Source of the DNA: Synergistaceae bacterium
Lineage (GTDB): Bacteria; Synergistota; Synergistia; Synergistales; Aminobacteriaceae
Assembly (NCBI GenBank): GCA_017405525.1
Contig: JAFRAH010000004.1
Location: forward strand, 1-52,942
Reading direction: 5' to 3'
Length of the DNA: 52,942 nucleotides
Made by a program: the position numbers and the translations under genes. Below, in pieces: positions 48,167-52,942 of the stretch; the stretch's first letter is position 1, and each line of letters begins with the position of its first letter. A model generated the notes under the pieces. The model was not told where the DNA came from. It searched no databases and saw only the letters and a program-made list of their open reading frames with translations.

Positions 48167-48919
48167 TTATTCCTGATGATGATGCACTCCTTCCCACTCG
48201 AAATTTTCGCCAAGATAGAACTTCCGGGCTAACTCATTCCCCGCCACTTCTTCAGGTGAGCCCGACAAAAATATTTTCCCGTCATGAATGAGATATGTCC
48301 TGTCAGTTATCGATAACGTTTCCCTGACGTTGTGGTCAGTGATGAGTATTCCGTAGCCTTGTGCCTTGAGCTCGTGTATCATGCTCTGAATGTCGGCAAC
48401 TGCTATCGGGTCAATCCCGCTGAATGGCTCGTCAAGTAGTATGAATTTCGGCTTCAGCGTCAAGGCTCTGGCAATCTCCACACGTCTTCGTTCACCGCCT
48501 GAGAGAGCATAGCCCTTAGTCTCGGCAATGTGGGTAATCTTGAACTGTTCCAGCAGGGCATCAGTGAGCTCCTTGGCATGTCTCTTCCTGCCTGTCTCCT
48601 CCCACACAAGGTTGATGTTTTCGCGGACGGTCAGGTTCCTGAACACTGAGGCTTCTTGCGGCAAATAACCTATACCCTTTCTTGCGCGCGCATAGACCGG
48701 GAGGCCGGTAATCTCTTCGCCGTCAATCATGACAGTCCCGGAGTCAGGACGTATGAGCCCGACGATCATGTAGAATGATGTAGTTTTCCCCGCACCGTTG
48801 GGGCCTAAGAGTCCTACAACCTCGCCTGCATTGACGTTGATGCTTACCCCTCCAACTACGAGCCTGCCGCTGTAACCCTTGCGGAGGTCTGAGGCTTTGA
48901 GTTCGTTAGTGCCGCTCAT
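48167..48919 (-). CDS. lptB: LPS export ABC transporter ATP-binding protein
   Basis: 250 residues. Walker A GPNGAGKTT, Q-loop LPQEASVFRNLTVREN, signature LSGGERRRVEIARAL, Walker B FILLDEPFSGIDPIAV and H-loop ITDHNVRET: the LptB pattern. Drives LPS extraction from the inner membrane with LptFG, absent here. Start ATG 48919 overlaps the end of the LptA-like gene. Its presence indicates a Gram-negative envelope. Confidence 0.95.
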   Translation of the reverse strand: MSGTNELKASDLRKGYSGRLVVGGVSINVNAGEVVGLLGPNGAGKTTSFYMIVGLIRPDSGTVMIDGEEITGLPVYARARKGIGYLPQEASVFRNLTVRENINLVWEETGRKRHAKELTDALLEQFKITHIAETKGYALSGGERRRVEIARALTLKPKFILLDEPFSGIDPIAVADIQSMIHELKAQGYGILITDHNVRETLSITDRTYLIHDGKIFLSGSPEEVAGNELARKFYLGENFEWEGVHHHQE

Positions 48920-49889
48920 TCTTGCGTGCCTTCCCTGTCTGTGGCTTGGCTTTGGGGCGTGTGTCAATCTTCAGGGTCTGGGGCTTGTCCTGAGTCCCTT
49001 GTTCCGGCTGGGGGGCTGGTGAGATTGCAGGGGTGTCCTGCCTGTCTCTTCGCTCGCGTGTAAGGTCTATGGTGATCTCTGCACGGTCTGCACTTATTGC
49101 GCCGTCCTCAGTCCTTCGGGTCAACCCACCGAGAGCCTCTACCCTGTTCTGGTCGGGGAAGTAGACGACTGAGTCAGACCTGAGCGTCCTTCCTCCCTGG
49201 ACTGCCACGACATGGCCGCTGACTACCACACTTCCGCGTTCAATCGAATACAATGCGTTGTCTCCCTTGAGGCTGACTGCATCACCTTTTGCCTTGGGCT
49301 TGCCTTTGAGCCAGACTCCTTTCTTGGCCGTGAGCTCGTAGAGATCCCCGCTGATTATGAGACCTTCAACAGAGTCTGCCCCAAAGCTGAGACCTCGTGA
49401 AGTGTCCTCAAGGCTGCGGACTTTCGTGAGCCAGAATTTCGTCTTGCGGTCATTGCCTGAAGGGTCGCTTACTCCTCCGACACCTGTGATTGTGAGACGG
49501 TCAGCGTCAAGCCTCATTGTCCCGATGCTGCCCCTGACCACGTCCCTGAAGCTGCATGTCGGTATGTCGAGGAACGAGAGCAGTAACCTTCCGGCCATGA
49601 TGTCGATGTTGTCGCCGTACCATTTGCCGGATGCATTGATGCCCTCGTTGAAGCTGACTTCCCGGCGGTCAACGTTCCCGGAACCTTGCGGGGCTGTAAC
49701 CCTGAGTTCCCCGGCTGTGATTACCACGTTGCCGTCAGCAAGGAAGTCTCCTGTCTCTGCGTCAAAGCGCATTCTGTTGGCTGAGAGGGTAGCCTGTTCG
49801 GGCATTTGGGAGTCATCGAGAGCGTAACATGGCAGTGTAAAACATAAGCACGTCAGAAAAGTAACGTACACTAAAATTTTTCGGGTCAT
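48906..49889 (-). CDS. lptA: LptA/LptC-like OstA-domain periplasmic protein
   Basis: 327 residues, longer than classical LptA (about 185). Signal peptide about 1-24 (ILVYVTFLTCLCFTLPCYA). Two OstA/LptA jellyroll-type stretches: ATLSANRMRFDAETGDFLADGNVVI and the second at about 210-275 (LKGDNALYSIERGSVVVSGHVVAVQGGRTLRSDSVVYFPDQNRVEALGG). The tail (275-327) is Pro/Gln/Lys-rich. Bridges LPS across the periplasm. Start ATG 49889 fits the signal peptide; the nearest AAGGAG is about 16 bases away, so a different start remains possible. Confidence 0.85.
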   Translation of the reverse strand: MTRKILVYVTFLTCLCFTLPCYALDDSQMPEQATLSANRMRFDAETGDFLADGNVVITAGELRVTAPQGSGNVDRREVSFNEGINASGKWYGDNIDIMAGRLLLSFLDIPTCSFRDVVRGSIGTMRLDADRLTITGVGGVSDPSGNDRKTKFWLTKVRSLEDTSRGLSFGADSVEGLIISGDLYELTAKKGVWLKGKPKAKGDAVSLKGDNALYSIERGSVVVSGHVVAVQGGRTLRSDSVVYFPDQNRVEALGGLTRRTEDGAISADRAEITIDLTRERRDRQDTPAISPAPQPEQGTQDKPQTLKIDTRPKAKPQTGKARKNERH

Positions 49890-49981
49890 TGTGTGGTTAG
49901 TCAGTCTCCTTTCGCTGGGAATGCCTGATAAATATATCACATGTCTAATCAGCATAGAATGAAGTATCAGGGAGGCAGTGA

Positions 49982-50538: not shown

Positions 50539-50573
50539 AAAAAAACCGGGCAGAGCATTATCACCCCGCCCGG
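50539..50573 (-). terminator. Terminator of the Nif11 precursor array
   Basis: CCGGGC (50546-50551) pairs with GCCCGG (50568-50573). Seven A at 50539-50545 form the T-run on the minus strand. It is 18 bases past the stop of the last precursor. Confidence 0.75.
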
Positions 50574-50590
50574 CATTGTCCCGTAAACCA

Positions 50591-50938
50591 TCAGTCAACG
50601 TTATGACCATACCCGCCACCTACACAGGCACAAGATCCTAGGTTATCCTTGTTGTTGGAAAAACCGGCACCAGCTCCCCAGACACATGCACAGGTCAGAT
50701 CACCAGCACCGCCACCGTATATAGCACATGCGCACCAGCTTCCGCCAGCTACTGCCTTCATTTCGTCCTCACTGAGCTGACCAGCCTGAGAATCCGCCGT
50801 GAAATCTTCTGCAGTCAGGTCGAAACCGTTGGCATTAGCTACCTTCAGCATGGCCTCAAGTTGTGCCGCATTCATGGCCTCCTGAAGTTTGCTGTCCTTT
50901 GAGAACTGATCGAGAAACTTCTTGCTGTTTTCTGTCAT
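50591..50938 (-). CDS. Nif11-leader RiPP precursor 1 (short-leader type)
   Basis: 115 residues. Leader 1-66: Nif11-like helical segment (KKFLDQFSKDSKLQEAM.. NGFDLTAEDF) ending LSEDEMKAVAGG, a double-glycine protease/exporter site. Core of 49 residues with three C-x-C motifs: WCACAIYGG, TCACVWG and SCACVGGGYG, separated by Gly-rich spacers. AGGAGG lies about nine bases before ATG. Closest to precursor 2 in the leader, to precursor 4 in the core. The modifying enzyme is not in the window. Confidence 0.9.
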   Translation of the reverse strand: MTENSKKFLDQFSKDSKLQEAMNAAQLEAMLKVANANGFDLTAEDFTADSQAGQLSEDEMKAVAGGSWCACAIYGGGAGDLTCACVWGAGAGFSNNKDNLGSCACVGGGYGHNVD

Positions 50939-50946
50939 TCCTTCAT

Positions 50947-50980
50947 CACCTCCTGATTTGCCTAAAAGTTACACCACAAG
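50947..50980 (-). repeat. Conserved precursor 5' element, copy 1
   Basis: Reads (plus strand) CACCTCCTGATTTGCC..GTTACACCACA; carries the ribosome site on the minus strand. Related copies precede precursors 2, 3 and 5. Confidence 0.7.
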
Positions 50981-50992
50981 ATATTTTGCCAC

Positions 50993-51027
50993 CCGGGCAG
51001 AACTCCAACCCATAAACAGAGACCCGG
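50993..51027 (-). other. Intergenic hairpin after the leaderless core
   Basis: CCGGG (50993-50997) and CCCGG (51023-51027) flank a loop with AGAACTCCAACCC, nearly the same sequence as in the hairpin at 51635-51668. It begins four bases beyond the relic's TAG, as the other does beyond the stop of precursor 3. Confidence 0.6.
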
Positions 51028-51031
51028 AAGC

Positions 51032-51181
51032 CTAGTTATTCTGCCCCATGCCAGAAGTTTGGCAATCGCAACGGTTATCGCTTATGAGACTGATACCGCC
51101 ACCGCCCTTCATGCATTGGCAGAACATATCACCAGAACCGCTACCTGCATAGTAGCAACCACATCCATTTCTGCTGCCTTC
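51032..51181 (-). pseudogene. Leaderless relic of a Nif11-type core peptide
   Basis: A 49-codon open stretch ending at TAG 51034-51032, with no start and no leader. It reads NGCGCYYAGSGSGDMFCQCM, then a Gly-rich spacer and NRCDCQTSGMGQNN: three C-x-C motifs at the same spacing as the intact cores. Just upstream, in another frame, is EGIDGQHDKK, similar to EGVDGKHH in precursor 2. Best explained by a deletion that fused the end of one precursor to the core of another. Confidence 0.75.
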
Positions 51182-51236
51182 TTATCATGTTGGCCGTCAA
51201 TGCCTTCACGCCTCCGTTCTGGTTGCAGCATCAGGC

Positions 51237-51584
51237 TTAATTTATTCCTGCACCGGCAATGACACACACGCACTTGCAGTCTTTAATCAGGTGGTGTTTG
51301 CCGTCTACTCCTTCGCCGCCAGTTGTACAGGCACACACAAGACCATCACCGCCGCCGCCGCCATAGAAAGCACATGCACATTTTCCGCCGCCAGCAACTG
51401 CCATCATCTCATCCTCGCTGAGTTCCTCGGCCTTTGCATCAGCCGCGAAATCCTCTGCAGTCAGATTGTACCCGTTGGCGTTCGCTACCTCCAGAATCGT
51501 CTCAAGCTGTGTAGCCCTCATGACTTCCTGGAGCTTAGCGTCCTTTGATGCCTGCTCAATAAACTTCTTGCCGTTCTCTGTCAT
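51237..51584 (-). CDS. Nif11-leader RiPP precursor 2 (short-leader type)
   Basis: 115 residues. Leader 1-66 (MTENGKKFIEQASKDAKLQE.., NGYNLTAEDF, EDEMMAVAGG) and a 49-residue core: KCACAFYGGGGG, VCACTTGG and DCKCVCV. This core has a seventh cysteine (C-K-C-V-C). Leader very like precursor 1 and distinct from 3-5, so the array has two leader classes that presumably serve the same protease. Frame intact; AGGAGG upstream. Confidence 0.9.
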   Translation of the reverse strand: MTENGKKFIEQASKDAKLQEVMRATQLETILEVANANGYNLTAEDFAADAKAEELSEDEMMAVAGGGKCACAFYGGGGGDGLVCACTTGGEGVDGKHHLIKDCKCVCVIAGAGIN

Positions 51585-51592
51585 TACTACAT

Positions 51593-51625
51593 TACCTCCT
51601 GATTTACACTAAGATTACTCCCATA
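51593..51625 (-). repeat. Conserved precursor 5' element, copy 2
   Basis: TACCTCCTGATTTACACTAAGATTACTCC, the most diverged of the four copies; contains the AGGAGG for precursor 2. Confidence 0.6.
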
Positions 51626-51634
51626 AAATTTTGC

Positions 51635-51668
51635 ACCGGGTAGAACTCCAACCCGAAAGAGACCCGGT
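51635..51668 (-). other. Hairpin between precursors 3 and 2 (attenuator or processing site)
   Basis: ACCGGGT (51635-51641) and ACCCGGT (51662-51668) pair perfectly; on the minus strand GCAAAATTTTA follows, a poor T-run. It starts four bases after the stop of precursor 3. Confidence 0.6.
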
Positions 51669-51671
51669 AGC

Positions 51672-52040
51672 CTAGTCGTTAGTCTCACCGAAGCCAGGAC
51701 CTGCGCAGGCGCAGCAACCTTTTTTCCCATTTCTTCCATCACCGTAACCGCCAAATACGCACCCGCAGGAAAGATCCCCGGCACCACCACCGACCACAGG
51801 GCATACGCAGACACTTCCACCCGCAACTGCCTCCATCTCGTCCTCGCTGAGTTCTCCCATTTCTGAGGGCTTGAAGTCATCCTCCGTGAGTGTGAACCCG
51901 TGTTTGGCCGCAAACTCTACCGTAGCTGACTTCTGAGCATCGACTTCTTTTGCAGCACCGTCAGCTAATACCTTGAACTCTTTCTGCAGTGCCTCATCAC
52001 TAGAAACAGCCTCGAGAAATTTCTTCATGTTGGCCGTCAT
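51672..52040 (-). CDS. Nif11-leader RiPP precursor 3 (long-leader type)
   Basis: 122 residues. Leader 1-75 (NMKKFLEAVSSDEALQKEF.., HGFTLTEDDFKPSEMGELSEDEMEAVAGG) and a 47-residue core: VCVCPVVGGG, SCGCVFGGYG and GCCACAGPGFG. Seven cysteines. The leader is almost identical to those of precursors 4 and 5, a sign of recent tandem duplication, while the cores differ more. Confidence 0.9.
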   Translation of the reverse strand: MTANMKKFLEAVSSDEALQKEFKVLADGAAKEVDAQKSATVEFAAKHGFTLTEDDFKPSEMGELSEDEMEAVAGGSVCVCPVVGGGAGDLSCGCVFGGYGDGRNGKKGCCACAGPGFGETND

Positions 52041-52048
52041 TACTTCAT

Positions 52049-52083
52049 GACCTCCTGATTCGCCTTAAGGTTACGCCACAGAG
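52049..52083 (-). repeat. Conserved precursor 5' element, copy 3
   Basis: GACCTCCTGATTCGCC..GGTTACGCCACAGA, close to copy 4. Confidence 0.7.
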
Positions 52084-52119
52084 GTTTAGCCTCCGGGTTT
52101 AACACTGAATCCTTGCAGA

Positions 52120-52491
52120 CTAGTAGACGTTGTCTCCGTAACCGCCACCCACGCAGGCACACATGCCCTTGTGTCCAGCGTTGGAGGAACCGCCGCCTAC
52201 TCCCCAGACACATGCGCAGGTAAGGTCGCCGCCGCCTCCACCGTATATAGCACACCCGCACTCGCTTCCACCAGCAACAGCCATCATCTCATCCTCGCTG
52301 AGTTCTCCCATCTCTGAGGGCTTGAAGTCATCCTCCGTGAGTGTGATTCCGTGTTTGGCCGCAAGCTCTACTATAGCTGACTTATGAGCGTCGACTTCTT
52401 TTGTCGCACTGTCCGCTAATACCTTGAACTCTTTCTGCAGAGCCTCATCACTGGAGACAGCCTCAAGAAACTTCTTCATGTTATCTGTCAT
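52120..52491 (-). CDS. Nif11-leader RiPP precursor 4 (long-leader type)
   Basis: 123 residues from ATG 52491, which aligns with the MTDNMKKFLEAVSS start of its paralogues; a longer frame to 52566 runs back into precursor 5. Leader 1-75 ends MMAVAGG; core of 48: ECGCAIYGGGGG, TCACVWGVGGG and MCACVGGGYG. The core is close to that of precursor 1 although the leaders belong to different classes, suggesting recombination between units. Only 19 bases separate it from precursor 5; GGGGGCG is its ribosome site, unlike the AGGAGG of the others. Confidence 0.88.
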   Translation of the reverse strand: MTDNMKKFLEAVSSDEALQKEFKVLADSATKEVDAHKSAIVELAAKHGITLTEDDFKPSEMGELSEDEMMAVAGGSECGCAIYGGGGGDLTCACVWGVGGGSSNAGHKGMCACVGGGYGDNVY

Positions 52492-52510
52492 GATTACGCC
52501 CCCATTGTTG

Positions 52511-52870
52511 TTAATCATCTTGGCCCAAGCCGCTCCAGGAACATTTGCAAGTTTTACCACTGTCATTAGTGCCTAGTCCGCTTAGTCCACAAACGCACTG
52601 TTTGCCTGTACCTGTTCCACCGCCAACCAAAGGACAAAAGCACACTCCGCCCGCAACTGCTTCGAGTTCGTCCATGCTGAGTTCTCCCATCTCTGAGGGC
52701 TTGAAGTCATCCTCCGTGAGTGTGAACCCGTGTTCAGCCGCAAGCTCTACTATAGCTGACTTATGAGCATCGGCTTCTTTTGTCGCACTGTCAGCTAGTA
52801 CCTTGAACTCTTTCTGCAGAGCCTCATCACTGGAAACAGCCTCCAGAAATCTCTTCATGTTGTCCGTCAT
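52511..52870 (-). CDS. Nif11-leader RiPP precursor 5 (long-leader type)
   Basis: 119 residues. Leader 1-75 (MTDNMKRFLEAVSS.., EHGFTLTEDDF, SMDELEAVAGG), core of 44: VCFCPLVGGG, QCVCGLSGLG and TCKCSWSGLG. Three C-x-C motifs, six cysteines. Its AGGAGG lies in the conserved element at 52878. It is the first precursor transcribed within the window; more may lie beyond the right edge. Confidence 0.9.
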   Translation of the reverse strand: MTDNMKRFLEAVSSDEALQKEFKVLADSATKEADAHKSAIVELAAEHGFTLTEDDFKPSEMGELSMDELEAVAGGVCFCPLVGGGTGTGKQCVCGLSGLGTNDSGKTCKCSWSGLGQDD

Positions 52871-52877
52871 TTCTACA

Positions 52878-52912
52878 TAACCTCCTGATTTGCTTAAAGG
52901 TTACGCCACAGA
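52878..52912 (-). repeat. Conserved precursor 5' element, copy 4
   Basis: AACCTCCTGATTTGC..AAGGTTACGCCACAGA; followed by CTCCGGG as in copy 3, so the duplication unit seems to continue past the window end. Confidence 0.7.
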
Positions 52913-52942
52913 AGATTTCTCCTCCGGGCGCAACTTCAGTAC

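Follow-up and report, generated by a model that had tools for sequence, protein, structure and literature searches.

An array of genes for short peptides occupies the right end of a 52,942-nucleotide stretch of DNA from a gut Synergistaceae bacterium (GenBank assembly GCA_017405525.1, contig JAFRAH010000004.1, positions 1 to 52,942 of the forward strand). This stretch, hereafter the window, is the complete contig C41 of a 2.17-Mb genome in 43 contigs that is 99.4% complete. The genes encode precursors of ribosomally synthesized and post-translationally modified peptides (RiPPs), in which a Nif11-type leader is followed by a core built from units of the form C-x-C-x3-G-x-G. Because the array sits behind a radical S-adenosylmethionine (SAM) enzyme, and because the Cys-Gly motif repeats three times while the rest of the core varies, the peptides suggest a family of sulfur-crosslinked natural products that has yet to be described. 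On balance, we favor the view that the array encodes a library of substrates for a radical SAM maturase that bears a RiPP recognition element (RRE) and installs thioethers between Cys sulfur and the Gly alpha carbon, with C39 peptidase cleavage at the Gly-Gly (GG) that ends the leader.

Five intact precursor genes and a relic form the array within the window; the evidence for each, from open reading frames (ORFs), leader profiles, or frame translation, is given in parentheses.

52511-52870, minus strand: precursor with a 75-residue Nif11 leader and the core VCFCPLVGGGTGTGKQCVCGLSGLGTNDSGKTCKCSWSGLGQDD (ORF and leader profile).
52120-52491, minus strand: precursor with a 75-residue Nif11 leader (ORF and leader profile).
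51672-52040, minus strand: precursor with a 75-residue Nif11 leader, three units, and seven Cys (GCCAC) (ORF and profile).
51237-51584, minus strand: precursor with a 66-residue Nif11 leader, three units, and seven Cys (DCKCVC) (ORF and profile).
50939-51236, minus strand: relic precursor with its three-unit core entire and its leader lost or out of frame (frame translation).
50591-50938, minus strand: precursor with a 66-residue Nif11 leader and three units (ORF and leader profile).

In the gene at 52511-52870, the three units read CFC PLV GGG, CVC GLS GLG, and CKC SWS GLG. The ORF finder began the adjacent gene at 52566; the ATG at 52491, which is homologous to that of Nif11 leaders, is taken as the true start. 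The relic is contained in a single minus-strand frame, GSRNGCGCYYAGSGSGDMFCQCMKGGGGISLISDNRCDCQTSGMGQNN, followed by a stop. All five intact precursors exceed the curated cutoffs for the TIGR03798 Nif11 leader and for Pfam Nif11 (PF07862), and in all five the leader ends in AVAGG. Stop-to-stop frames of at least 40 residues with at least three C-x-C motifs number eight in the window; 20 first-order Markov simulations averaged 0.1 such frames, so the C-x-C array is not due to chance. The five intact precursors and the relic, the AVAGG leader ends, and the use of two leader classes (66 and 75 residues) with a common core plan had all been described in a first-pass annotation of this DNA, and each of these descriptions stands. 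The same annotation assigned exactly three C-x-C motifs to each core, which is correct for units and incorrect for strict pattern matches, as two of the cores contain a seventh Cys.

Each C-x-C, the only motif described in the first-pass annotation, is followed by G-x-G. Within the locus (the five window precursors and a sixth on the adjoining contig C7), a loop of three to five residues leads to G-x-G in 18 of 18 units, compared to a shuffle maximum of 11; because the shuffle tests used throughout count related sequences as separate, their figures serve as description and not as exact probabilities. When 32 precursors from this and other genomes are aligned, the invariant and near-invariant core columns are exclusively Cys and Gly. 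These columns form three C-x-C-x3-G-x-G units, with free variation at the residues that separate Cys from Gly. Across 129 units from 45 nonredundant cores, unit positions 7 and 9 are each Gly in 95% of cases (Gly background, 24%), and G-x-G follows the three- to five-residue loop in 127 units, as opposed to at most 38 when the non-Cys residues are shuffled. The pattern extends to a hold-out set of seven cores from genomes outside motif discovery, with Gly at position 7 in 18 of 18 units and at position 9 in 15 of 18. The residue four positions after Cys is Gly in 187 of 198 units and in none of them Asp or Glu.

Relatives with a single Cys per motif, from Treponema and other genomes, also retain part of this pattern: x3-G follows Cys at 35 of their 39 Cys residues (shuffle maximum 21). 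Since these relatives keep C-x3-G, and since position 9 is rarely Gly in Atopobiaceae, C-x3-G, not C-x-C, is the deepest invariant, to which the outer Cys and the outer Gly seem to have been added. The expected conservation of C-x-C among homologues is borne out in the sense that relatives keep the motif, while the deeper invariant lies elsewhere. Three units per core is common and not fixed; the ninth precursor of the genome, an orphan isolated on contig C28, has two.

The window ends within the locus, and the candidate maturase is found on C7, which is placed directly upstream of the array because its first 127 bases equal the last 127 of the window. We infer that C7 and C41 are joined, the overlap being what an assembler with k = 127 (itself a presumed value) would leave at a graph junction. 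The features that complete the locus are the following.

52816-52942, no strand assigned: exact 127-bp overlap between the window end and the start of C7 (sequence identity, single occurrence in the window).
C7:206-550, minus strand: sixth precursor, a Nif11-leader gene on the adjoining contig.
C7:553-2001, minus strand: radical SAM/SPASM maturase of 482 residues, immediately upstream of the sixth precursor.
50545-50574, minus strand: terminator-like hairpin with a 13-bp stem and a T run, just 3' of the last precursor (consensus match only).

With a promoter-like site preceding the maturase gene and the terminator-like hairpin following the last precursor, the maturase, six precursors, and relic read as one operon. 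A maturase beyond the window end, which the first-pass annotation had proposed to seek, thus adjoins the array once the contigs are joined.

The C7 maturase scores over the cutoffs for PF04055 and SPASM. Its cluster motif reads CNYRCKHC, and the corresponding CX3CX2C is present in 56 of 56 family members; the seven-Cys SPASM pattern (C-x12-G-x4-C ... C-x2-C-x5-C-x3-C ... C) is present in 48 of the 56, this enzyme included. The enzyme falls below both curated families of Nif11 maturases (TIGR04103, 76 versus 725 bits; TIGR04064, about 12 versus 519 bits). By sequence profile, its closest solved relative is the sactisynthase SkfB (E 2.6e-16), and an AlphaFold model (predicted local distance difference test [pLDDT] 86.5) matches ChlB, SkfB, anSME, SuiB, and CteB at Z 22.7-25.2. 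The N-terminal 88 residues, modeled alone (pLDDT 94), match lasso B1 (Z 7.8), PqqD (Z 5.7), TigE, TbiB1, LynD, and MccB in fold, and the domain is predicted from the model to be a leader-binding RRE with a PqqD-like fold. The individual Z scores of these matches are modest, some unrelated winged-helix proteins score equally, and the Foldseek E-values are weak; a sequence profile of the domain has no match in the PDB, so the RRE likeness comes from the fold search.

A contig scan identified 33 clear maturase relatives, mostly in gut metagenome genomes, from Synergistaceae, Clostridia, Lachnospiraceae, Oscillospiraceae, Erysipelotrichaceae, Atopobiaceae, Coriobacteriales, and Spirochaetota. For one relative, Lachnospiraceae bacterium C6A11 (L038), the record is other than a metagenome assembly. 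The maturase or a relative is present in 18 of 188 Synergistota genomes, and relatives are present in 21 of 200 genomes from the family of one Clostridia relative; none were found on plasmids. Precursors of the same plan adjoin close maturase relatives in most cases. The same kind of core lies beside related maturases in Synergistota, Bacillota, and Actinomycetota, and single-Cys C-x3-G cores do so in Spirochaetota, so that relatives occur in at least four bacterial phyla. In the maturase tree, where some placements are long-branched and uncertain, the ten Synergistaceae enzymes whose precursors have CxCx3GxG cores group in a single clade (support 100/97); beside it, the same genus contributes sister clades whose partner cores are short and very different. 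As maturase branch and core type go together, the tree supports action of the enzyme on the core.

The sister maturases themselves (Synergistaceae loci L023, L030, L032, L058-L060, L068-L071, L076, and L077, most from the same genus) adjoin cores such as YSCTGVIMKWTCDNVTW and WKCNESHVAAVRTYALCGWCNYSHIW; one maturase family would, by this comparison, encompass several substrate codes. The precursors beside remoter family maturases at L208, L210-L212, and L214 seem to add further core types, among them WCFADYDCYTAWNHDSPDQ and FFWTGEDAPDGHEMGC. In the Atopobiaceae loci L034, L035, and L036, the maturases form a tandem pair, 11-14 precursors are spread over the genome, and the unit is C-x-C-x3-G-x-A/V.

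Leader and core identities diverge in opposite senses between pairs of precursors. Those with 75-residue leaders are 85-91% identical in their leaders and just 36-51% identical in their cores, whereas the C7 precursor and that at 52120-52491 share 47% of leader residues and 79% of core residues. For this reason, cores change fast while their Cys and Gly framework stays constant, and they appear to have been swapped between leader classes. Core divergence, apparent core exchange, and the relic together make the array look like a precursor library under turnover.

A sister locus on contig C26 contains a paralogous maturase (70% identical to the C7 maturase), two precursors, and genes for a response-regulator-like protein, a short HlyD-like protein, and two ATP-binding cassette (ABC) proteins of a putative NHLM exporter. 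The C39-peptidase ABC protein scores 856 bits against TIGR03796 (cutoff 853) and is the sole match over that cutoff in the genome. Its partner is under the cutoff for TIGR03797 (682 versus 709 bits), and the HlyD component is a short protein of 172 residues with a weak partial match. The C39 exporter sought in the first-pass annotation therefore exists once in the genome, on C26 rather than at the array; among relatives, the exporter pair is often in the same locus as the maturase. Two further C26 genes are of note. A DUF7005 (PF22541) protein (L011:10809-11615), with homologues in L014, L045, L056, L176, and L041, adjoins the maturase in several loci; it has a conserved HExxH ... NNLHDELIADF, is 60-63% identical within Synergistaceae and 31% identical in a Spirochaetaceae genome, and is a putative metallopeptidase that may be part of the system. 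A 61-residue ORF (L011:11661-11846) has the GG-leader-like sequence LTDEMLESYAGG followed by a C2H2-zinc-finger-like core and no Pfam match. Elsewhere in the window, at 48906-49955 and upstream, the gene adjoining an lptA-like gene differs among the relatives compared, and this junction seems to be a variable site.

In the proposed mechanism, the RRE of the C7 maturase would bind the Nif11 leader, and the radical SAM center would take a hydrogen from the Gly alpha carbon, to which the Cys four residues upstream would add as a thioether (sactionine). The bond is placed at the alpha carbon because Gly has no other carbon-hydrogen available. The outer Cys is probably bonded to the outer Gly (i to i+8), which would form a nested mini-hairpin where C-x-C and G-x-G coexist, and with three hairpins per core as many as six thioethers would form (-12.1 Da). 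Cleavage after GG and export of the core in trans would then fall to the C26 NHLM exporter with its C39 peptidase. One enzyme would in this way yield a mixed set of peptides, probably with roles in competition or signaling among gut anaerobes. More tentatively, these peptides may represent a new RiPP topology: strings of nested Cys-Gly alpha-carbon thioether hairpins with up to six crosslinks, made from rapidly diversifying libraries by a single family of leader-guided radical SAM enzymes. Distant relatives would have C-x3-G as a simpler form, and the topology would be distributed over at least four phyla, mostly in gut anaerobes.

Several observations weigh against Cys-Gly thioethers. Atopobiaceae keep C1 and always have Gly at position 7, yet position 9 is Gly in merely 7% of their 28 units, which rules out C1-G9 pairing as a universal rule. 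The C7 maturase is 15-24% identical to its solved relatives, and its fold is equally near to SuiB, PqqE, and anSME, which do not form thioethers; the shared fold does not reveal the reaction. Sister maturases of the family adjoin cores in which Cys is arranged differently or, in a few cases, is nearly absent. The array locus is without an exporter, the C39 exporter being on the separate contig C26. Finally, the conservation of Gly could be structural (e.g., tight turns) instead of chemical.

An unlikely alternative, although the one that survives best, is a radical SAM thioether on a variable residue (at the alpha, beta, or gamma carbon, as in sacti- and ranthipeptides), with G-x-G merely allowing a turn. 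Sactisynthases take many residues, and PapB has equal Cys-x3 spacing, with Asp (PMC8172795); a turn could also explain the frequency of Gly at the +4 position. Yet the 32 aligned cores have no conserved column besides Cys and Gly, the +4 residue is never acidic, and free variation at the positions separating Cys from Gly leaves a regular non-Gly acceptor no fixed place. It is somewhat more doubtful still that the enzyme makes another change without S-C bonds, such as a C-C crosslink, epimerization, Cys conversion, or Gly oxidation, in which Cys would act as substrate or radical partner. The fold is common to SuiB (C-C bond), PqqE, EpeE (epimerase), and anSME, and so would accommodate such chemistry, but joint invariance of Cys and Gly at fixed spacing best fits a Cys-Gly bond.

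The first-pass annotation favored a crosslinked or metal-binding product over a lanthipeptide, and the two parts of this proposal have fared differently. A secreted chelator, in which C-x-C thiol pairs would hold Zn, Cu(I), or an Fe-S cluster, is now improbable. The six paired Cys resemble those of thiol-rich metal binders, and the C7 maturase adjoins genes resembling an iron-type ABC uptake system; however, such genes are not seen at the sister locus on C26, a radical SAM/SPASM maturase is the regular neighbor of the precursors, and chelation leaves the invariant Gly unexplained. It is weakened further because distant relatives have single-Cys C-x3-G cores. The crosslinked product is preferred over a lanthionine product because a radical SAM/SPASM enzyme is the sole candidate maturase by the array and because neither LanC-like cyclases (PF05147) nor YcaO (PF02624) have a match in the genome, which is 99.4% complete. 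A classic lanthipeptide or azole peptide whose enzyme is encoded at another place in the genome is accordingly highly improbable, even though lanthipeptide synthetases use Nif11 leaders (e.g., prochlorosins), the more so with cores of only two to eight Ser and Thr.

Cys-Gly thioethers in this array would have partial counterparts among described systems. The general type, in which a radical SAM enzyme is the only maturase for Nif11 precursors, was already predicted in 2011 (PMC3023750). The Nif11/NHLP systems of Haft (TIGR04064 and TIGR04103) are alike in their GG-terminated Nif11 leader, C39-peptidase NHLM exporter, and radical SAM/SPASM maturase; the present system is set apart from them by its maturase score, far below both cutoffs. 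In ruminococcin C, the Cys of a C-x-C pair are bonded as a hairpin (Cys22-Asn35 and Cys24-Glu31), and streptosactin has a Cys31-Gly34 thioether (PMC8172795). Ruminococcin C (maturase RumMC) thus resembles the proposed product in its gut anaerobe source, radical SAM maturase, and nested bonding of a C-x-C pair to downstream residues, whereas its acceptors are Asn, Glu/Ala, Arg, and Lys at i+7 or more, in two hairpins, rather than Gly at i+4. Streptosactin (maturase GggB), from streptococci, is similar in its Cys-to-Gly alpha-thioether and small unnested rings and differs in its C-x2-G spacing and two rings, with one Gly and one Ser acceptor. To our knowledge, neither ruminococcin C nor streptosactin has a Nif11 leader. 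The ranthipeptide freyrasin (PapB) likewise has a repeated Cys-x3-acceptor pattern and six crosslinks per peptide (PMC8172795), with Asp as acceptor at the beta carbon in place of Gly. The prochlorosins share conserved Nif11 leaders, divergent cores, and the use of one enzyme for many precursors (PMC10783134), in contrast employing lanthionine chemistry by ProcM. A literature search found no described product of this type, a weak negative since subscription journals were largely outside the search. Nor did it turn up a description of this family of maturases, or of the C-x-C-x3-G-x-G unit and how widely it occurs; the general Nif11-radical SAM kind is already known.

If Cys-Gly thioethers are indeed formed, a thioether-forming enzyme would follow a strict substrate code that can be read from sequence (C-x3-G, the intervening residues being free), the dozens of cores would serve as a natural library for testing it, and Gly would here be the acceptor as a rule. 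Such bonds would also mean that Synergistota make such peptides, despite a 2014 survey of three Synergistota genomes in which no RiPP cluster was found (PMC4289311).

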